41,759 nt of DNA from NCBI GenBank assembly GCA_947259075.1, contig CAMYKQ010000060.1, positions 1-41,759 on the forward strand. The letters are read 5' to 3'. The notes below the pieces were generated by a model. The model worked only from the letters and a program-made list of their open reading frames with translations, had not been told where the DNA came from and ran no database searches. Below are positions 28,226 through 40,743 of this stretch, in pieces. How positions within the stretch are numbered: the first letter of the stretch is position 1; each line of letters opens with the position of its first letter. Made by a program: the position numbers and the translations under genes. Origin of the DNA: an uncultured Gammaproteobacteria bacterium (lineage in GTDB: Bacteria > Pseudomonadota > Gammaproteobacteria > DRLM01).

Positions 28226-29794
<1,569 letters not shown>

Positions 29795-30020: not shown

Positions 30021-32804
30021 TTATTCCACCGCTTTACCTTCCGAGTACTTCACCTCCGTGTTTGCGGGAAGCGCGCCCATATTGTGCTCCACGAAGACCG
30101 GCATGCCCGTGCTCAAATCCACCGAGTCCGCCTGTGAAATATCGGGAACGCTGCCGCTGGCATTAGTGATATCCGTCGGCGTCACCACGTTGAGGAACAC
30201 GCTGACCTCCAGCGGCTTCACGTAGTAGTGAACACCGTTGCCATCCGTCACATCGGCGCCCTCGGGGATGTTAATCACCTTGCTGGCGATATCAGGCGTC
30301 ATCTCCCAGTTGTTCTTCGACATCTCTTGATAGAGATCCGGCAGACCGTGCATCCAGCCGTCGAACTGCAACGACAGCACTTTGTTAACCGCCGTTCCGC
30401 TGGCATTCACGGCGCTGCCCGAGGGCACGGTGATCTGCAAGGGATCAGACAAGATCACATAGTTGCTGCTGGCATCCACCAAGAACTGCTGCGTGCCCCA
30501 GCCGCCGTCAGCCGAGTATTCCCAGTTGAATTCCACCGGGCGTTGATCGGCCGGCAGCGTGAAGGGATCCGCCGTCACCTGCACCCCGTCCGCCCGCAGG
30601 GGATAATCATCCGAAAAATCACTCGGCGTGCCATTGTCGCTATAGGCGCGCAGACCCCACTCGCCGCTGGTCACCGCATCCCCCGCGCTAAACATCGGCG
30701 GTGTTTGCACATCGGTATTGGCATACACCAGCTTGAGGAAATTGGCATTGCCTACGGTGGTGTTCAAGGTGTAACGCGCCTCCGGCCGCCACGGCGTACG
30801 TAAATAATTCGTGCCCGCGGGAAGGATGGAGGCATGATTGACCGGGTTGGCCGCGCTCTGCAGTTCGATCCACACCTCGTAGTCGCTGGTGTCGGTGCCG
30901 GTGCTCGCCACTTTTCTCACCACGAAATTAGCGCCATTACTGTTGATGTAATAATCACGGCCTAATTCCGGCATAAAGGTGGTGTCGGCGCCATTGACGA
31001 ATTTCGGTGTCCACGTTTGCTGGTCGAAGCTCTCCAGCTTTTTCTGCACCCAACCCGCATTGGTGTATTGAATGTAAATGGAACCGCCGATATCGACGAA
31101 GATGCTATCGCCAGTCGTGGGTGTAAAAGCGACGGCGGGGGTATTAGGCGTCAAACGGCCCATATTATCCCGCATTGCCTCATAGAAACCGGCGCCCGTG
31201 AAACTAAAGCCGTTTATGCCCGGGTCCGACTCCAAGCGCACATACTCTTTCTGCGCGCCAGCGCCGCTGTTGGCCGTGGGATCCCAACGGCCGATGTTGA
31301 CATGCTTGCGATCATTTTCGCTGGTCACCAAACTGCCGAAATCAGTGAACGGGGTGAAGGCGCCGGTGCTGCCATCGACATTACGGCACACCGGACTGGA
31401 CGGTCCGCCGCTCCAATCGACGAAGCCGTTGCACGACTGCCATTGGCTACCGTCATACACCAGGTCGAAATGTTTATTAACGAAGGTCTCTACCGCGATA
31501 TTAAGCACATCGCTTAAATCACCCGCCACCAGGGTACGCTTGGTGAGCGTGCCGGCGAAGGGCGCGGAAACCGTGTAGGTCTCGGCGGTTTGACCCGGGC
31601 CGCGATCTTCGCGCGTCAACACGGCGTCCGCTGGCACGCCGCCACCACCAGGGCCGCCGCCCCATAGTTGATGACGGCCTTGCCACGCGCCGTAATAAGC
31701 ATGACGGCTCACGCCGTTGCTATCGGTGTAACGCAAGGGGAAACCGAAACCTTTGTGTTTCTGCAAATTGTCGCCCGCGGCGATGGCCTTACCATTACCG
31801 TCGGTGCCCGCGGCCGCATAGAACAAACCGTAACGGTGAGTGAAGTCGGTCTTGCCATTGCGGTCTTTATAAATCGCCGGATCCGCGCCTTCCTGCAAAC
31901 CGAGATACGCGGCGTTATAGGCGTACTTCGCGCCTTTCGTCACTTGGGCGCAGCCATTCATATCGCAATTCATGTCGTTGTATTCGACCTTGCCGTACCC
32001 TTCGGTGCCGGAGCGGTACATCACCGCCTTGGTGGCCCAGGTCATGGGCTGGCCTTGTTCCTCGCGCTGCTGACTCTCGTTGATCTTCAACACGGTCTGA
32101 CCATTGACGATGCGCGCGTTGGCGGCGAAGAAATCACTGCCGGCATCATTGAATTTGACGTTGAGATCCCATTCACCGTAATCGGCGTAGGAACCATCGG
32201 GATTCTGCGTGGCGGTTTTCAAGATCTTGAATTCCGCCTTAATCAACTTGCTCTGACCGGGGTTATCTTCGTCAGGCTCTTCAATCCAAGCCAGCAGACG
32301 ATTCACGTCTTGACCGTCAACCACGATCATGCGCGATTCCACCACCCAAGGCTGCAGCTGTTTGATGGAGACGCCATTTTGCTCTTCATCCCACGCGATC
32401 ATCGCCTTGTACGGGCCAGCGTTAATATTTTCCTGATCGGCGTAATTGGTTTGCGCGAGCGCGCTCATCACCTGCTCGATGATGTCGAATTGTTCCAGCG
32501 CGCGCTCTTCAATGTACTTGCGCGTAGCGGCTTTATTGTAGTCCGAGGTGGCGGGTAAATCGGTCGTGGCGCGGGCCAGCGCGTGCAGCCGCGAACTCAA
32601 CCCGCGCGCGAGATAGGCCGCGCCATTGGTGTTGTCCGCGGGCACGGCGGAAATTTCCGTGGGCAGACTATAACCCGTGGTCAACGCCGACAACACTTCA
32701 CCGTCCGTGTTGGTATTGGTGCCGGTGCTCACCGAGCCGCCGCCCCCGCCACACGCCGTTAAACCCATTGCCGCGGCAATCAAGACTACAAGTTCACGTT
32801 TCAT
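30021..32804 (-). CDS. 927-residue secreted lipoprotein of unknown function
   Basis: Begins MKRELVVLIAAAMGLTACGGGGG: a lipoprotein signal with lipobox LTAC (lipidated Cys18) and a Gly-rich linker, so the mature protein sits in the outer membrane or on the surface. The rest is rich in Tyr, Trp, Asn, Asp and Gly, with beta-like segments and no heme (CxxCH) motif; four Cys occur in the middle (two near NCDMNGC, two around CNGFVDWSGGPSSPVC). I recognise no domain. Repeated themes are not obvious. It has a good ribosome-binding site (GAGGAG), its own strong terminator, and faces away from the nitrite-reductase operon across a 644-base gap. Coupling to that operon is inference from position. Confidence 0.85.
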   Translation of the reverse strand: MKRELVVLIAAAMGLTACGGGGGSVSTGTNTNTDGEVLSALTTGYSLPTEISAVPADNTNGAAYLARGLSSRLHALARATTDLPATSDYNKAATRKYIEERALEQFDIIEQVMSALAQTNYADQENINAGPYKAMIAWDEEQNGVSIKQLQPWVVESRMIVVDGQDVNRLLAWIEEPDEDNPGQSKLIKAEFKILKTATQNPDGSYADYGEWDLNVKFNDAGSDFFAANARIVNGQTVLKINESQQREEQGQPMTWATKAVMYRSGTEGYGKVEYNDMNCDMNGCAQVTKGAKYAYNAAYLGLQEGADPAIYKDRNGKTDFTHRYGLFYAAAGTDGNGKAIAAGDNLQKHKGFGFPLRYTDSNGVSRHAYYGAWQGRHQLWGGGPGGGGVPADAVLTREDRGPGQTAETYTVSAPFAGTLTKRTLVAGDLSDVLNIAVETFVNKHFDLVYDGSQWQSCNGFVDWSGGPSSPVCRNVDGSTGAFTPFTDFGSLVTSENDRKHVNIGRWDPTANSGAGAQKEYVRLESDPGINGFSFTGAGFYEAMRDNMGRLTPNTPAVAFTPTTGDSIFVDIGGSIYIQYTNAGWVQKKLESFDQQTWTPKFVNGADTTFMPELGRDYYINSNGANFVVRKVASTGTDTSDYEVWIELQSAANPVNHASILPAGTNYLRTPWRPEARYTLNTTVGNANFLKLVYANTDVQTPPMFSAGDAVTSGEWGLRAYSDNGTPSDFSDDYPLRADGVQVTADPFTLPADQRPVEFNWEYSADGGWGTQQFLVDASSNYVILSDPLQITVPSGSAVNASGTAVNKVLSLQFDGWMHGLPDLYQEMSKNNWEMTPDIASKVINIPEGADVTDGNGVHYYVKPLEVSVFLNVVTPTDITNASGSVPDISQADSVDLSTGMPVFVEHNMGALPANTEVKYSEGKAVE

Positions 32805-33305: not shown

Positions 33306-33334
33306 TTGACAGCCCGCATTAGCTCAACTATCTA
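33306..33334 (+). promoter_or_regulatory. Sigma-70 promoter of the multicopper oxidase-nirK operon
   Basis: TTGACA (33306-33311), 17 bp, TATCTA (33329-33334). The predicted start near 33341 coincides with the left end of the NsrR-like palindrome, giving an untranslated leader of about 108 bases. Confidence 0.6.
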
Positions 33335-33340
33335 TTTAAA

Positions 33341-33373
33341 CCATTAAGATGTATTTAATATGAACCTTAATGG
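33341..33373. promoter_or_regulatory. NsrR-like operator (NO-responsive) overlapping the transcription start
   Basis: The 23-base core at 33346-33368 starts AAGATGTATTT and ends CCTT; by eye it agrees with the NsrR consensus AAGATGYATTT-N-AAATRCATCTT at 20 of 23 positions, with the left half perfect. The symmetry extends outward: CCATTAAG (33341-33348) and CTTAATGG (33366-33373) are exact complements. Location at the predicted +1 suits repression relieved by nitric oxide, as known for nirK clusters in Nitrosomonas and aniA in Neisseria. Confidence 0.7.
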
Positions 33374-33448
33374 TTGATTCAAAGCGTAGGCTATTAGCGC
33401 GTGCGATTCGGGCCTATCACTTTTTCCACTGAGTTTAAGGAGCAGCCT

Positions 33449-34525
33449 ATGTGGCAAGCGGATGGCAGATGCTTGATCTTGATAATGGCGCTGGCGGTGG
33501 CGCTGCCGGCGTGGGCCGAGCAGCGCGAGCTTGATATCTCCATCGATGAGATGACCATTCAGGTGGCGCCGGACCTCAAATACCAGGTCTTCGCCTTCAA
33601 CGGCCAGGTGCCCGGCCCCTTGATCCATGTCAAGCAAGGCGATGACATCATCGCCCATGTCACCAATAACACCACGCTGCCCCACACCATCCACTGGCAC
33701 GGACAATACCAAAGCAATAACTGGCAAATGGACGGCGTGCCCGGCGTGACGCAAAAGGCCATCGAACCCGGTGACACCTTCACCTATAAATTCAAGGCCG
33801 AGAAGACCGGCAGCACCTGGTATCACTGCCATGTCAATGTAAGCGAACACGTCGGCATACGCGGCATGTGGGGGGCGTTGATCGTCGATCCGCTCAAGCC
33901 GTCGCTGCTCGAACAGCGCGTGACCAAGGATGTGGTGATGATGCTGAGTTCATGGGACTCGCAATACGCCGAAAAACTCGGCTCCGGCGGCGGCCCGCTC
34001 GACCGCCCCAATTATTTTTCCATCAATGCGCGTTCTTTTCCCTTGACCCAGCCCATCAATGTAAAGAAGGGTGACGTGGTGCGTCTGCGTCTCTTCGATG
34101 CGGGCGCGGACATACACGCGATCCACACCCACGGCCATGACATGCTGATTACGCACAAGGATGGCCTGCCCTTACCCGCGCCTTATTATGCCGACACCGT
34201 CTTGATCGGCCCGGGCGAACGTTACGACGCCATCATTGAAATGAATAATCCAGGCCTGTGGATGGTGCATGATCATATCGATCCGCATGTGACCAATAAT
34301 GGCCTGCACGGCGGCGGCGCCATGACCCTCATCGCCTACGAAGGCATCAAGTCACCCGTCCCCGACGACGCCCACAACGCGCTACCCAACGACGATCCCG
34401 ATTTCTATTTCAGCGCATCGATGAAGAAGCCTTATGGCTTGCACGACAACGCGCGCTTCAAGGGCACGCCCATCCAATCAGAGGGCCGCCGCGAGCGCAG
34501 GGGCGGAAGCCATGATACGCATTAA
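33449..34525 (+). CDS. ncgA: Two-domain multicopper oxidase, NcgA-like
   Basis: A 358-residue protein with a signal peptide (cleavage near PAWAEQ) and two cupredoxin domains. Domain 1 has HTIHWHG (79-85), WYHCH (124-128), H134 and M140, so it has a type 1 copper site (Cys127). Domain 2 has HAIHTHGHD (223-231) and HDH (274-276), where the Cys position is Asp275, so it has no type 1 copper. This is the pattern of type C two-domain laccase-like oxidases. In Nitrosomonas, the equivalent NcgA precedes two cytochromes and nirK; roles in nitrite/NO tolerance are reported, the substrate is not settled. The ATG at 33449 follows TAAGGAG; the stop overlaps the next start by 14 bases. The C-terminus is a basic, low-complexity tail. 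Confidence 0.85.
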   Translation: MWQADGRCLILIMALAVALPAWAEQRELDISIDEMTIQVAPDLKYQVFAFNGQVPGPLIHVKQGDDIIAHVTNNTTLPHTIHWHGQYQSNNWQMDGVPGVTQKAIEPGDTFTYKFKAEKTGSTWYHCHVNVSEHVGIRGMWGALIVDPLKPSLLEQRVTKDVVMMLSSWDSQYAEKLGSGGGPLDRPNYFSINARSFPLTQPINVKKGDVVRLRLFDAGADIHAIHTHGHDMLITHKDGLPLPAPYYADTVLIGPGERYDAIIEMNNPGLWMVHDHIDPHVTNNGLHGGGAMTLIAYEGIKSPVPDDAHNALPNDDPDFYFSASMKKPYGLHDNARFKGTPIQSEGRRERRGGSHDTH

Positions 34526-35204
34526 GAGAGCATTCGCGATTGCGCTGCTGAGCCTCAGCGCGAGCGCAAGCTGGGCGGCCGATGGCGAGGCCATGCTCAG
34601 TTCGCAATGCGCGAGTTGCCACAATCTCACCGGTCCCGCACCCGCAACCTTGCAGGCCCTGCGGGAACGCAAGGGACCGGACCTCTTTTACGCCGGCAAC
34701 AAATACAAGGCGCAATGGATGGTGCAGTGGCTGCAAAAACCCCAGCGCATCCGGCCGGCCGGGATGTTTTATGTCAACCACGTCAAGGACGGCGCAGAGG
34801 GTGACGCGATCGATGACGGCGGTCTCACGGCCCATCCCGCGCTAGCGGCCGCCGCTGCCCAGGCCGTCACCGACGCGCTGATGCAGCGCAAGGCGCGCGA
34901 TGATTTGATCCGCGCCGGCGCATACACCCCCGGCACGCTCTCGAAGAGCATGGGCGAAATGCTGTTCGATAAATTCCGTGGCTGCCTCGCCTGTCATGAG
35001 ATCGAACCCGGCTACGGCGGCCTATCCGGACCCGAAGTCTACACCGCCGCCGCGCGTTTGCAGGAAGACTACATCGTGAGTTACCTGCGCGATCCGCAGG
35101 CCTGGGACCCAAAGATCTTCATGCCCAACCGCCACCTCAGCGACAGCGACTTGCAAAAGTTCGTGCATTACTTTCGCGCGCTGGGCCAAGAGGTGAAGCC
35201 ATGA
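34512..35204 (+). CDS. ncgB: Diheme cytochrome c, NcgB-like
   Basis: A 230-residue periplasmic protein from the ATG at 34512, with signal peptide (RIKRAFAIALLSLSASASWAA) and two heme c sites: CASCH (33-37) and CLACH (158-162). Candidate axial Met residues follow in each half (RPAGMFYVNH and KIFMPNRHL). Likely carries electrons between the multicopper oxidase, a respiratory donor and NirK. The upstream in-frame ATG (34434) lies inside ncgA and was rejected in favour of the signal-peptide start. Its stop overlaps the next ATG (ATGA). Confidence 0.88.
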   Translation: MIRIKRAFAIALLSLSASASWAADGEAMLSSQCASCHNLTGPAPATLQALRERKGPDLFYAGNKYKAQWMVQWLQKPQRIRPAGMFYVNHVKDGAEGDAIDDGGLTAHPALAAAAAQAVTDALMQRKARDDLIRAGAYTPGTLSKSMGEMLFDKFRGCLACHEIEPGYGGLSGPEVYTAAARLQEDYIVSYLRDPQAWDPKIFMPNRHLSDSDLQKFVHYFRALGQEVKP

Positions 35205-35560
35205 ATCACGAAATCATCATCGCGTTATTGGCGGCGGCGGCCATCCTCGCGGCGCCGGCCTCCGGCAAAGAGAGCGCCGAGGACAATTACACGGCCTATT
35301 GCACTCAGTGTCATGGCATCCATGGCGATGGCAAGGGCATTAACGCCCGCGACATGTCGGTGCAACCGCGCGACCACACCGACGCCACGGCCATGTCGGC
35401 GCGGTCGGACGCGGATATTTTCAAGGCGATCAAGGAAGGGGGCGTCCCCATCAATAAATCCGTGTTAATGCCCCCCTGGGGCGATGTGCTCACTGATGAG
35501 GAGATTCATGATCTCGTGCGCTATCTACGCAAGTTGTGCCAATGCGATCACGGCAATTGA
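35201..35560 (+). CDS. ncgC: Monoheme cytochrome c, NcgC-like
   Basis: A 119-residue cytochrome c with a signal peptide (about 1-22) and one heme site CTQCHGIHGDGKG (Cys34, Cys37, His38), with axial Met in VLMPPWG (about 89). This is the class I layout; the C-terminus is short and unusual (LRKLCQCDHGN), with two extra Cys. It is the third gene of the operon and a likely electron donor to NirK. Translation is coupled to ncgB through ATGA. Confidence 0.88.
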   Translation: MNHEIIIALLAAAAILAAPASGKESAEDNYTAYCTQCHGIHGDGKGINARDMSVQPRDHTDATAMSARSDADIFKAIKEGGVPINKSVLMPPWGDVLTDEEIHDLVRYLRKLCQCDHGN

Positions 35561-35578
35561 TTTCGCAATCGTGATCGC
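35544..35578 (+). other. Intercistronic hairpin between ncgC and nirK
   Basis: GCGATCACG (35544-35552) pairs with CGTGATCGC (35570-35578), and inner ATTG/CAAT adds to the stem. It covers the ncgC stop codon. No T-tract follows, so it may be a processing or stability element that gives nirK a different level from ncgABC. Confidence 0.5.
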
Positions 35579-35641
35579 TGCTACCGCTGAAATAAGTACC
35601 CGCGTTTTTTGTTCAATGTGAGAAACAGAGGAGAGACTTAT

Positions 35642-36586
35642 ATGCGCATTAAAAATCTCGCCGCCGTCGTGGCGGCTGCCGCAATGATGTGTGCCGCGGG
35701 CGCGGCCTGGGCCAAGACCGTCAAGGTCACCATGCACGCCCACGAGGGGCCGGTGGAGATTGACAATAAAGGCACGCAATACGCGGCGTGGACCTTCGAC
35801 GGCACCATCCCGGGACCAGTGGTGCGGGTGACCGAAGGTGACACCGTGGAATTCACCTTAATCAACGACAAGGAAAATAAAAATTCCCATGCCATGGATT
35901 TTCACGCCGCCATAGTGGATGTGCTCGACGAGTTCGCCCCGGTGAAACCGGGCGAGACCAAGAAATTTAATTTCGTCGCGAAGTATCCCGGCGTCTTCAT
36001 GTACCACTGCGGCGCCATGCCGATGCAGCAACATATTGCCCGCGGCATGTTCGGCGTCATCATCGTCGACCCCAAGGAAGGCTACAGCAAGGACTATCCG
36101 CAGCCGGATCGCGAATACGTGCTGGTGCAGAGCCAATTCTTCCCCGATGCTGACAACGACAAGGCGATGCTAGTCAACGAGGGCTGGAGCAATTCGCTCA
36201 TCAACGGCAAGATCTTCCACTATGATCCGGTCCACGATCCCAACGCCAGCCTGGCGCTGGTGGCCAAGCCCGGCGAGCGCGTGCGCATCTTCTTCGTCAA
36301 CGCCAATATCAATATGCCGGTGGCGCTGCACCCCATCGCCGGCATCTGGGATCGCGTCTATCTCAATGGCAACCCGAAGAACGTGATTTACGGCATGCAG
36401 ACCTACAACGTGGCGGTGGCGGAGGCCACGACCTTTGACATCGTTTCACCGTCAGACCGCGCCACCAACAACGCCATCGTCGATCACACCATGAGCGCGG
36501 CCTTGCGTGGTGCCATCACGGTGCTGATGAACAGCCCGGATGCCGACCCCGCACTGGGCAAGGGAGACAAGATCATCCTGCGCTAA
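35642..36586 (+). CDS. nirK: Copper-containing nitrite reductase, Nitrosomonas-type short form
   Basis: A 314-residue periplasmic enzyme with signal peptide (cleavage near AAWAK) and two cupredoxin domains. Copper ligands are all visible: type 1 H83, C123, H131, M136; type 2 H88, H122, H282; catalytic Asp86 and His230. The motifs are HAMDFHAA (83-90), YHCGAMPMQQH (121-131) and ALHPIAG. The Cys-to-His loop is one residue shorter than in Alcaligenes-type NirK. The protein is short, like the Nitrosomonas enzyme. It reduces nitrite to NO. GGAGAG precedes the ATG at 35642; an upstream ATG at 35609 lacks a signal-peptide fit. Last gene of the operon with the NsrR-like operator. Confidence 0.9.
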   Translation: MRIKNLAAVVAAAAMMCAAGAAWAKTVKVTMHAHEGPVEIDNKGTQYAAWTFDGTIPGPVVRVTEGDTVEFTLINDKENKNSHAMDFHAAIVDVLDEFAPVKPGETKKFNFVAKYPGVFMYHCGAMPMQQHIARGMFGVIIVDPKEGYSKDYPQPDREYVLVQSQFFPDADNDKAMLVNEGWSNSLINGKIFHYDPVHDPNASLALVAKPGERVRIFFVNANINMPVALHPIAGIWDRVYLNGNPKNVIYGMQTYNVAVAEATTFDIVSPSDRATNNAIVDHTMSAALRGAITVLMNSPDADPALGKGDKIILR

Positions 36587-36608
36587 AGGGATTCAGCGCG
36601 GCGATATC

Positions 36609-36632
36609 AGGGGGCCCGATCGGGCCCCCTTT
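36609..36632 (+). terminator. Terminator of the ncgABC-nirK operon
   Basis: Perfect palindrome formed by AGGGGGCCCGA and TCGGGCCCCCT (36609-36630) followed by TT and a weakly T-rich tail. It can also serve the convergent SBBP gene. The 100 bases after it hold nothing I recognise. Confidence 0.7.
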
Positions 36633-36748: not shown

Positions 36749-39322
36749 TCAGCGCCGCCTCAACGGCACACCGCGGCGGCGCCAGGCCGCCAAGGCCGCC
36801 AGCAACACCAGCGCCGGACTCGCGCCGCCGCCCTCGCCCACGGTGATGATGGTTTCCGCACTCGCGCTATTATTGCTGGCATCCGGGTCGGGCTGACGGG
36901 TGCGGATGATATCGACGCTGACTGTCTGCGTGCCGCCAGTGCGGGCGCGCAGCGCCAGCGCCAGTTGCGTGCTGCCGCCGGCGATGATCTCGCCGACCTC
37001 ACACAATACGATCGCGCCTTCGACGCTGCACGTCCCCTGCACCGGCGTAACGGCAACCACGATGAAGGCATCGGGTATCACGCTGCGCAGAGTGAGGCCG
37101 CTGGCGGTGCTGGGACCGTTGTTGCCCACGGTGATGTCGTAGTTCACGGTGCTGCCCTCGGGCGCGGGGTCTTCGCGATCCGTCACGCTCAGCCACACAT
37201 CCGCCGTTTGCGCCCCGTCGTTCAAGCCCGCCAGAAACACATCGCCGCCGCCGGCCGCGCTGGCCTGCGCCGCGTTCAAGGCGGGAAAATCCGTGGAGGC
37301 GGTGAGCCCGGTCACGTAAAACGCGCCCGCGCCACTCAAGGCCACGCCCGCGCCGGCATCATCGCCGCCGCCACCCAAATACGTGGACCAATCCAGCGCG
37401 GTGCCCGTGGCGTTGAGTTTGCTGACGAAGGCGTCTTGGTTGCCGAAGCGCGCGAATTGCAGCGGCAGCGCCAAGGGAAAATTCGCCGAGGCGGTATCGC
37501 CCGTCAGCAGCACGCCGCCGTCCGCCGCCAAGGCGAGGCCTAATGCCTCATCGAAATCATCGCCGCCCAAATAGGTGGCGTAAATGATGCTGCTGCCCGC
37601 GGCGTTGATCTTGGCGGCGAAGGCATCGCCGCGCCCGCCGCCATAGCCGCTTTGCAGCGCGCCCGGCGTCACCGGCAGATTACCGGAGACCGTCACCCCG
37701 GCGATGTAAATATTGTCGGCGCCGTCCACGGCCAAGGCATAGGCGCGATCCCAGCTGTCGCCGCCGAAATAAGTGGAATACAGCACGCTGGTGCCACCGG
37801 CGCTGAGGCGGCTGATGAAGGCATCTTCGGGGAAGCCTTGCAAAATATCGTACAAATTCGTGGCCGTGATCGGGAAGATTTGGGAGGCGGTGCCGCCCGC
37901 CACCACCACCTCGCCCGCGCTGGTGAGCGCGATGGCGGAAATGGAATCCACGTCGTTGCCGCCCCAATAGGTGGAGAACACCGCGCTGGCGCCGTCGGCG
38001 CTGAGTTGGGTGACAAAACCGTCGGCCTTATAAATACCATTCGCATCGGCATCACCGCGGATGCTGCCTTGCGCCACCCCCGCCGTCACCGGAAAATTCG
38101 CCGAGGTGGTGCCGCCCGCCACATAGGCCTGGCCCGCGCCGTTGACTACCACGGCGCGCGCGGTCTCCGTGACGCTGCCGCCGAGATAGGTGCTGTACAC
38201 CAGCGTGGCGCCGTCGGCGCTGAGCTTGGCGGCGAAGGCATCGGTGCTGCCAAGCCTAGCGGCCTGTTTAGGATTTTGCGTGGGGAAATCGCTGGAAGCC
38301 GTGTCACCCGCCACATAGGCCGCGCCGCTGGCGTCCACCGCCACGGCGAAACCGCGATCCGTGCCCGCGCCACCGAGATAGCTCACATACACCAGCGCGC
38401 CGCTGCTATCGAGCTTGGCGACGAAGGCGTCCGTGCCGCCGCCGTGCGCCGCTTGCAGCGCGCCGTTCACGGGAAAATCGCTGGAGGCCGTCTGCCCGGT
38501 GAGATAGACATTGCCGCTGCCGTCCACCGCCACGCCGCCCGCCTGCTCGGCGCCGCTGCCGCCGAGATAACTGCCGTAGACCAGCACCGGGTCGATGATG
38601 AGCGGCCGGCTTGTATCGTACTCGCCCAGCCATAAGCTCACTTGATCGCCGCCGCGCAGGACATAACCGCCGTCCACCGCGCGGCGGCCGCCGGGACCTG
38701 TTTGATAGATCACCGGCTTGTTGAGCACCAAGGTGTCATCACCGCTGTGTAACTGCAGCGTGCCGTTCTCGGTCACGGCGAGGTGTCGCGCGCCCTCGAC
38801 CTGCAACCGTATCCGCCCCGGATCCGCACCTGGCGCCACTACCCAGTCGAATTCCAAACGGCCGTCACGGCCGTAATAAAACATGTCGATGCCGGGATAG
38901 ACCGCCTGATATTCAACGCGGCCGTAGACCTGGATATCCCGCCGCCACCGCGCCGCGTCGGCACCGAGGAAATAATGACGCGCGCCCGGCAGCGCGCCGT
39001 GCGCCGTGCCCGTGGCGGCAGGGTCGGCGCCCAGCCAATGCAAGCGCAGCGCCGCGGCGCCGCGGGTGAAATTCACCGCCACCTCAGCGGGATTCAACAA
39101 TACGCTGTAGCCCGGCGCGCGGGCCAGGAATTGCGCGCCCGCCGCGGCTTGGGCGGCACGGGGCTCAAAAGAAAGAGGCAAGCTGGCAAAGGCCGCGGCC
39201 GGCGGCTGCGCGATGAGCGGCGCTGCGGGACGCAGCGTCCCCGGCGGCAACATCATCACCATCAACAGCGCGATACCGCTTGCGCCCGCCAGCCACCCCG
39301 CCGTCCCGGTTTTTAGCCGCAT
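36749..39322 (-). CDS. SBBP beta-propeller repeat surface protein with GlyGly-CTERM-like tail
   Basis: An 857-residue secreted protein. N-terminal hydrophobic signal segment (about 8-28), then a non-repeat domain (about 45-245). From about residue 245 to 680 there are roughly eight SBBP repeats, each with a YLGG-type turn, GVAVDGSGNVY, and TASSDFP-type phrases. A DUF11-like domain follows (about 690-825: TVNYDITVGNNGPSTASGL). The end is GGGASPALVLLAALAAWRRRG plus further Arg: a Gly stretch, a hydrophobic helix and an Arg cluster, the layout of GlyGly-CTERM sorting signals cut by rhombosortase. Likely displayed on the cell surface or released; the ligand is unknown. Transcribed toward nirK, divergent from purD. 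Confidence 0.88.
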   Translation of the reverse strand: MRLKTGTAGWLAGASGIALLMVMMLPPGTLRPAAPLIAQPPAAAFASLPLSFEPRAAQAAAGAQFLARAPGYSVLLNPAEVAVNFTRGAAALRLHWLGADPAATGTAHGALPGARHYFLGADAARWRRDIQVYGRVEYQAVYPGIDMFYYGRDGRLEFDWVVAPGADPGRIRLQVEGARHLAVTENGTLQLHSGDDTLVLNKPVIYQTGPGGRRAVDGGYVLRGGDQVSLWLGEYDTSRPLIIDPVLVYGSYLGGSGAEQAGGVAVDGSGNVYLTGQTASSDFPVNGALQAAHGGGTDAFVAKLDSSGALVYVSYLGGAGTDRGFAVAVDASGAAYVAGDTASSDFPTQNPKQAARLGSTDAFAAKLSADGATLVYSTYLGGSVTETARAVVVNGAGQAYVAGGTTSANFPVTAGVAQGSIRGDADANGIYKADGFVTQLSADGASAVFSTYWGGNDVDSISAIALTSAGEVVVAGGTASQIFPITATNLYDILQGFPEDAFISRLSAGGTSVLYSTYFGGDSWDRAYALAVDGADNIYIAGVTVSGNLPVTPGALQSGYGGGRGDAFAAKINAAGSSIIYATYLGGDDFDEALGLALAADGGVLLTGDTASANFPLALPLQFARFGNQDAFVSKLNATGTALDWSTYLGGGGDDAGAGVALSGAGAFYVTGLTASTDFPALNAAQASAAGGGDVFLAGLNDGAQTADVWLSVTDREDPAPEGSTVNYDITVGNNGPSTASGLTLRSVIPDAFIVVAVTPVQGTCSVEGAIVLCEVGEIIAGGSTQLALALRARTGGTQTVSVDIIRTRQPDPDASNNSASAETIITVGEGGGASPALVLLAALAAWRRRGVPLRRR

Positions 39323-39456
39323 ATTTCAACTCATTGTGTTGCCGCGATTGTCTGGGATTCTAGCACGGCCTTCACATGCCAGCGCCTGGTCGAGACAGGG
39401 CCGCGGGCATGCGGTATTCTTTGCCACCCAGACCCTCCACTTACACTGAGGCAAAC

Positions 39457-40743
39457 ATGAAGGTGTTGATTATCGGCGGCGGCGGGCGCGAGCACGCCCT
39501 GGCCTGGAAATGCGCGCAGTCGCCGCGCGTGGACAAAGTCTATGTCGCCCCCGGCAACGCCGGCACCGCACGCGAAAATAAAGTGGAAAACCTCGCCATC
39601 GCCGCCGAGGCCATCCCGCAACTGGTGGCCTTCGCCCGCGACAACGGCATCGCGCTCACCATCGTCGGCCCCGAGGCGCCGCTGGTCGCCGGGGTGGTGG
39701 ACGCGTTTCAAGCGGCGGGCCTGCGCTGCTTCGGTCCCAGCCAAGCGGCGGCGCAGCTGGAAGGCTCCAAGGCCTTCGCCAAGGATTTTCTCGCGCGCCA
39801 TCGCATCCCCACCGCCGATTATCAAAACTTCACCGACATCGAAGCCGCCATCGCCTATATAAAAGAAATGGGCGCGCCCCTGGTGGTCAAGGCCGATGGC
39901 CTGGCCGCGGGCAAGGGGGTCATCCTCGCGCAGACGGAGGACGAGGCCATCGCCGCGGTGCGCGATATGCTCGCGGGCAATGCCTTCGGCAGCGCGGGTC
40001 ATCGCGTGGTCGTCGAAGAATTCCTGCGCGGCGAAGAGGCCAGCTTCATCGTCATGGTGGACGGCGAACATGTGCTGCCGATGGCCACCTCGCAGGATCA
40101 CAAGGCCCGCGACGACGGCGACCGCGGCCCCAACACCGGCGGCATGGGCGCCTATTCGCCCGCGCCGGTGGTCACGCCCGAGATTCACCAACGCATCATG
40201 AAGGAAGTGATCGAACCCACGGTGCGCGGCATGGCCGAGGACGGCACACCCTACACCGGCTTTCTCTACGCGGGGGTGATGATAGACGAGCGCGGCACGC
40301 CGCGGGTGCTGGAATTCAACTGCCGCTTCGGCGATCCCGAGACCCAGCCCATCATGCTGCGGCTGCGCTCGGACCTCACCGAACTCTGCGAGGCCGCGCT
40401 GAATAAACGCTTGGATAAAGTACAAGCCGAGTGGGACCCGCGTCCCGCCCTGGGCGTGGTGCTGGCGGCGGGCGGTTATCCCGGCGACTATCGCAAGGGC
40501 GATGTCATCCGCGGCCTGTCCGAAAGCGAGAACGCCGACAGCAAAATCTTTCACGCGGGCACGGCGGAAAAAAACGGCGAGGTCGTCACCAGCGGCGGCC
40601 GTGTCTTATGCGCCTGCGCCTTGGGCGACACGGTCTCGCAAGCGCAAGCGCGCGCCTACGCAGCGGCCAAGGTCATACACTGGGACGGCGTGTTCTACCG
40701 CCACGACATCGGCTACCGCGCCATCGCCCGCGAACAGGCTTAA
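39457..40743 (+). CDS. purD: Phosphoribosylamine-glycine ligase
   Basis: A 428-residue GARS of usual length: MKVLIIGGGGREHALAWK, YVAPGNAGT, VGPEAPLVAGVVDAF, ATP-grasp residues KADGLAAGKGVILA, FLRGEEASFIVMVDGE, TGGMGAYSPAPVV, and EFNCRFGDPETQPIM. It makes glycinamide ribonucleotide in purine synthesis. The ATG at 39457 matches the family start; earlier in-frame ATGs (39376, 39409) add unrelated residues. It is separated from purH by the accessory region. Confidence 0.98.
   Translation: MKVLIIGGGGREHALAWKCAQSPRVDKVYVAPGNAGTARENKVENLAIAAEAIPQLVAFARDNGIALTIVGPEAPLVAGVVDAFQAAGLRCFGPSQAAAQLEGSKAFAKDFLARHRIPTADYQNFTDIEAAIAYIKEMGAPLVVKADGLAAGKGVILAQTEDEAIAAVRDMLAGNAFGSAGHRVVVEEFLRGEEASFIVMVDGEHVLPMATSQDHKARDDGDRGPNTGGMGAYSPAPVVTPEIHQRIMKEVIEPTVRGMAEDGTPYTGFLYAGVMIDERGTPRVLEFNCRFGDPETQPIMLRLRSDLTELCEAALNKRLDKVQAEWDPRPALGVVLAAGGYPGDYRKGDVIRGLSESENADSKIFHAGTAEKNGEVVTSGGRVLCACALGDTVSQAQARAYAAAKVIHWDGVFYRHDIGYRAIAREQA

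Follow-up and report, generated by a model that had tools for sequence, protein, structure and literature searches.

The best described relative of the cluster studied here is ncgABC-nirK of Nitrosomonas europaea, which is under NsrR control (Beaumont 2002, 2004, 2005, as cited in PMC5080386, PMC6967387 and PMC1274295). According to PMC5080386 and PMC6967387, this species owes nitrite tolerance to nirK and ncgABC, and in the absence of ncgABC its fitness is reduced by nirK. In Nitrobacter winogradskyi, nirK and ncgABC are tied to nitrogen oxide (NOx) fluxes, with no known nor gene (PMC5080386), and Zetaproteobacteria also carry ncgABC-nirK (PMC3603346). The cluster in these three groups, and its NsrR control in Nitrosomonas, are thus known already, and the module has so far mainly been discussed as a nitrifier trait. 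Here we describe an ncgABC-nirK cluster of an uncultured Gammaproteobacteria bacterium, located on contig CAMYKQ010000060.1 (assembly GCA_947259075.1), whose 41,759 nucleotides are hereafter called the window.

The window holds four open reading frames (ORFs) at 33449-36586, all on the plus strand, in the Nitrosomonas order ncgA-ncgB-ncgC-nirK. We consider it quite probable that they form a Nitrosomonas-type operon repressed by NsrR, which a probably autotrophic gammaproteobacterium gained by horizontal transfer and which serves tolerance to nitrite and nitric oxide (NO). With the N. europaea cluster it shares the gene set and order, the multicopper oxidase, the diheme and monoheme cytochromes, the short NirK and NsrR-type control. 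It differs in that neither ammonia monooxygenase (AMO) nor a heme-copper NO reductase was found in the present host, in that nsrR lies on another contig, and in that the proteins are well diverged, with long branches. The zetaproteobacterial cluster is the same one in a lineage not oxidising ammonia, but there the copies frequently show rearrangement or duplication (L052, L056, L061) and fall in other clades than the window. As for N. winogradskyi, likened here by description only, the gene set is the same and no known nor gene is reported there (PMC5080386), but it is an alphaproteobacterial nitrite oxidiser whose genes are influenced by quorum sensing.

Gene content and the NsrR-type operator

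The first gene, ncgA (33449-34525, plus strand), encodes a predicted two-domain multicopper oxidase of 358 aa with Pfam Cu-oxidase_3/_2 matches. It is followed on the same strand by ncgB (34512-35204), for a diheme cytochrome c of 230 aa with CxxCH at residues 33 and 158, and by ncgC (35201-35560), for a monoheme cytochrome c of 119 aa with CxxCH at residue 34 (Cytochrome_CBB3, 3.6e-12). The last gene, nirK (35642-36586), encodes a 314-aa copper nitrite reductase of the short type known from N. europaea. Judged by eye, the N-termini of all four proteins are signal-peptide-like. An ncgB orthologue is found between ncgA and ncgC in most relatives. An earlier reading made from the sequence only had named these genes and their Nitrosomonas-type layout, and Pfam, PDB matches and gene order among relatives agree with it; the overlaps it gave, 14 bases for ncgA/ncgB (34512-34525) and 4 bases for ncgB/ncgC (35201-35204), are exact. 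A candidate intrinsic terminator closes the operon at 36609-36630 on the plus strand (stem 9 bp with 8 G-C pairs, loop 4 nt, short T tail, fold -21.3 kcal/mol).

In terms of catalytic residues, the NirK copper ligands that the same reading had described as kept are all present, according to motif positions and alignment to the solved structure 4KNS. These are H83, C123, H131 and M136 for type 1 copper and H88, H122 and H282 for type 2 copper, with D86 and H230 as catalytic residues. The top solved-structure match of NirK is 4KNS at 385.5 bits, the next NirK reaching 171.7 bits. For NcgA, 2ZWN comes first (481.6 bits) and 3G5W second (416.9 bits). We take 4KNS to be the N. europaea NirK and 3G5W its two-domain laccase, NcgA. 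The alignments to 2ZWN and 3G5W, both two-domain laccases, cover almost the whole mature length of NcgA; the two are crystal structures of proteins from other organisms.

Upstream of ncgA, at 33346-33368 on the plus strand, lies the NsrR-type operator AAGATGTATTTAATATGAACCTT. It agrees with the NsrR core GATGYAT-N5-ATRCATC at 12/14 positions and with the 23-mer consensus at 19/22 informative positions, a score equalled in none of 300 shuffles of the upstream region. The consensus-based scan also gave a site at shuffle p < 0.05 in 33 of 47 relatives, and no such site in the upstream regions of Nitrospirae, with the exception of L047. Motif discovery on 41 dereplicated ncgA upstream regions, with no consensus given, returned AAGATGTATTtaaaATaCATc (17 bits), with a log-likelihood ratio of 230 compared to 80-86 in four shuffled sets, the real set having 120 random starts and each shuffled set 40. 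In its base pattern, this motif is the published NsrR palindrome gATGyAT-N5-ATrCATc (PMC1274295). The window operator scores 22.4 in it, second to L008 at 23.2, and is the top-scoring site among the stretches scanned in its own genome, the weight matrix having been trained on a set that included this site. The NsrR-type operator proposed from sequence is in this way borne out, by the shuffles and the de novo motif, with a candidate nsrR in the genome. A pattern fitted to the window site was discarded as circular and replaced by the literature consensus and de novo discovery. The reversed-pattern control for operator matches is an unfair null in a GC-rich genome (the GC content of the window is 0.63).

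An exact 10-bp inverted repeat, AACCATTAAG / CTTAATGGTT, spans 33339-33375 and overlaps the operator ends. When the upstream region was shuffled 1000 times, such a repeat arose 7 times, and the repeat of the window is not generally conserved among relatives. A candidate promoter lies at 33306-33334 on the plus strand, with TTGACA (33306-33311), a 17-nt spacer and TATCTA. Measured from this guessed promoter the operator would occupy about +5 to +27, and its placement at the predicted +1 is plausible to that extent; it is not established, given the weak -10 and an empty promoter scan.

Genomic site and horizontal transfer

The cluster sits between purH (28226-29794, plus strand) and purD (39454-40743, plus strand), which anchor the site on the left and right and were recognised by Pfam, purD by its GARS domains. 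On the minus strand, a 927-aa ORF at 30021-32804 with no Pfam match lies between purH and ncgA, and a gene for an 857-aa surface-type protein with SBBP/DUF11 matches in Pfam lies between nirK and purD (36749-39322). The 927-aa ORF adjoins purD in relatives: it is found beside it in G005 and G004 (family identity 47-54%), and only a C-terminal remnant is left in G003. The order of the host comprises six genomes, all of one family.

In G003, where purD is 80-81% identical, the interval lacks ncg genes and holds purH, what is left of the 927-aa ORF, the SBBP protein and purD. The interval of G005 consists of purH, the 927-aa ORF and purD. Both genomes carry ncgABC-nirK elsewhere, that of G003 at C139; this copy is our locus L020, assigned to G003 by the same PurD match. 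The window NcgA shares 80% identity with that of L016 but no more than 62% with that of G003, despite the 81% identity of PurD to G003. In the NcgA tree, the window groups with L016 at support 100/93. Approximately unbiased (AU) tests reject a clade of window and L020, with p 6.9e-60 for NcgA and 1.7e-7 for NirK, the tested clade being somewhat strict as it also excludes L025, the sister of L020. This points to horizontal transfer of the cluster into the host, because the G003 site lacks the cluster and yet a different version is present elsewhere in G003. The GC content of the cluster, 0.59 compared to 0.64-0.66 in purH and purD, is weakly consistent with transfer.

AU tests on NirK reject window with L016 and L001 (p 9e-8) and allow a wider six-row group (p 0.41). 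Set against the grouping of NcgA with L016, this led us to reject a single simple history shared by ncgA and nirK. The differing trees therefore suggest exchange within the cluster.

Proposed role in nitrite and NO tolerance

Induction of the operon by NO is what we infer from its sequence. The mechanism we propose rests, by analogy, on N. europaea genetics. NsrR with an intact iron-sulfur (FeS) cluster would sit on the operator close to the promoter and block transcription. NO, met directly or made from nitrite, would damage the FeS cluster and release NsrR, and the four proteins would be exported after derepression. NirK would then reduce nitrite to NO in the periplasm, with electrons arriving via NcgB and NcgC, and NcgA, as an O2-using multicopper oxidase, would together with the cytochromes keep NO harmless. 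Some multicopper oxidases can oxidise NO; that NcgA does so is a conjecture.

Several points speak against this interpretation. The -10-like TATCTA is poor, though TTGACA is perfect, and the promoter scan gave no promoter above its threshold upstream of ncgA. The nsrR candidate, on contig C37 of the host genome, is not adjacent to the cluster, and its best NCBIfam match, the NsrR model NF008240, reaches 141.6 bits, below the cut-off of 182. NirK itself scores 173.1 bits (residues 24-302) in NCBIfam TIGR02376, under the equivalog cut-off of 296.3; because of this score, it is filed by similarity as NeNIR-type and not under TIGR02376. As for other routes of NO removal, no heme-copper NO reductase was found in the host, in a search that did not extend to NirS, Hmp, NnrS or flavodiiron NO reductases. 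Lastly, the absence of nirK in two congeners is unusable as evidence of gain: G001 also lacks purD, and the G002 contig ends just past purD.

The cluster could also serve respiratory or partial denitrification. NirK would then act as terminal reductase under anaerobic conditions, coupled to the oxidation of iron or sulfur, and NcgABC would be its electron-transfer chain. We regard this as unlikely. NirK has all its catalytic residues, the host is probably autotrophic, and the cluster is common in Zetaproteobacteria, for which nitrite-coupled Fe(II) oxidation has been raised (PMC3603346), and present in Leptospirillum. On the other hand, the operator is of the NsrR type, as in NO defence, and the two-domain laccase-type oxidase points to O2-using conditions. 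The PF00115 profile would catch NorB, yet a full-length NorB is not among the COX1-family matches of the host, which consist of a CcoN-like protein and two short, partial ones (174-175 aa). Nor is there a NarG among the three molybdopterin enzymes found in the host. One is a probable assimilatory nitrate reductase that has a BFD domain and scores best with models of formate dehydrogenase and NasC; the others are NuoG and a QrcB-like protein. Tolerance is the likelier role because a heme-copper NO reductase was not found.

Regulator, relatives and host

A search of the host genome for nsrR, one of the checks proposed together with the sequence-only reading, found four clear members of the Rrf2 family. 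Two of them are IscR-like, another is SufR-like, and the one at C37 is NsrR-like. The C37 protein has three cysteines in the expected region and is probably the NsrR orthologue. In nine relatives, the flank retrieved with the cluster contains an nsrR homologue. It sits just upstream of ncgA on the opposite strand in five of them (L002, L005, L009, L027, L065) and downstream of the cluster in the other four. The motif precedes ncgA in every one of the nine, and their flank homologues match the C37 candidate at 44-65%.

Matches to the NsrR core with at most 2 mismatches number 23 in the whole genome. We did not regard the 19 that fall within ORFs as operators; the other 4, including the window site, are intergenic. 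One NsrR-like site, AATGTGTGCACAATACATC (L087 1499-1521, which is G000:C20 about 51301-51323, G000 being the host genome), precedes a truncated-globin gene (Pfam PF01152) by 36 bp and has TTGACA and an AT-rich -10-like stretch in front of it. The truncated-globin gene is probably a second NO-regulated unit, and a small NO regulon of ncg operon and truncated globin appears likely, the globin link being post hoc and drawn from one site. The globin, with its own NsrR-like site, would be a possible second NO sink.

Binding of the operator by another Rrf2 protein, SufR-like or IscR-like, would make the operon answer to iron or redox state and not to NO. The genome does have such regulators beside the NsrR candidate, and the labels of many loci with the cluster name Fe(II)-oxidising lineages. 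Nevertheless, the motif discovered de novo agrees with the NsrR palindrome from the literature, the flank homologue in nine relatives matches the NsrR candidate, and the second site precedes a globin gene, so that we find this explanation very improbable.

A wider proposal, and rather a long shot, is that ncgABC-nirK and its NsrR operator make up a mobile and self-contained unit for nitrite/NO tolerance that has spread among autotrophs without NO reductase. NcgABC would then be an O2-using NO oxidase that returns the NO of NirK to nitrite in a protective futile cycle, with the truncated globin as a second NsrR-controlled sink.

The sequence-only reading had taken the host for a likely gammaproteobacterium, which agrees with the closest kin of the window being uncultured gammaproteobacteria. 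The emphasis of that reading on a module shared with ammonia oxidisers has to be corrected, since no AMO was found, N. europaea is distant in the trees, and the cluster is common outside nitrifiers. In the phylogeny it had proposed as a check, made for NcgA and NirK, the N. europaea branch is very long in both trees and lies at a great distance from the window proteins. Its proposed amo/pmo search was run, and neither AMO nor particulate methane monooxygenase (pMMO) was detected in the host, in five order-mates or in the genomes of L001 and L016, with a methanotroph-like control (L038; genome G023) being positive. That the host is a nitrifier which uses the cluster to deal with NO and nitrite is hardly credible: N. 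europaea has the same four genes in the same order, and its NirK and NcgA are among the best PDB matches, but AMO was not found in host or order with a positive control, hydroxylamine oxidoreductase (HAO) had no match in a search where no positive control gave signal either, and both trees place the N. europaea proteins far away. The link to nitrifiers is thus a weak one.

A scan of genome contigs for NirK gave 71 loci, labelled mainly as uncultured gammaproteobacteria, Zetaproteobacteria/Mariprofundus and Nitrospirae, including Leptospirillum, with a few betaproteobacteria, alphaproteobacteria and methanotroph relatives. Because peptides of the query served as seeds, the scan is biased to near kin and is not a census. 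The order ncgA-ncgB-ncgC-nirK is kept in most of the loci with enough flank. The cluster thus looks like a general chemolithotroph module and not a nitrifier-specific one, as judged from these sequences. Some variations of the layout were found. In L010, L015 and L033 (Nitrospirae, Nitrospinota), nirK comes first, followed by distant ncgB and ncgC, with no match for ncgA. In L052, L056, L061 and L071 (Zetaproteobacteria), parts of the cluster are present in two copies, some on opposite strands and some with second NirK paralogues.

The module and its NsrR switch are therefore seen in many chemolithotroph lineages not labelled as ammonia oxidisers, and one small family holds differently placed, phylogenetically distinct copies of it. 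How widely NsrR control occurs may be new, as may the separate acquisition of the cluster, the former because no paper joining nirK, NsrR and iron oxidisers was found in a partial literature collection. These results reframe ncgABC-nirK as a transferable nitrite/NO defence unit, and non-nitrifier hosts allow the function of ncgABC to be studied free of interference from ammonia oxidation.

Finally, the 3.1-Mb host genome has three separate RuBisCO large-subunit genes (G000:C55, C26 and C48), and its gene content would fit a chemolithoautotroph that is not a nitrifier or a full denitrifier. An unusual oxidase region was also observed in L123 (G000:C65:22001-42000), with a dense run of cytochrome genes that includes a CcoN-like subunit, a CcoO-like protein and a PdsA-like diheme protein. 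The two proteins of 174-175 aa lie in this region, and their matches to the COX1 profile are confined to its C-terminal part.

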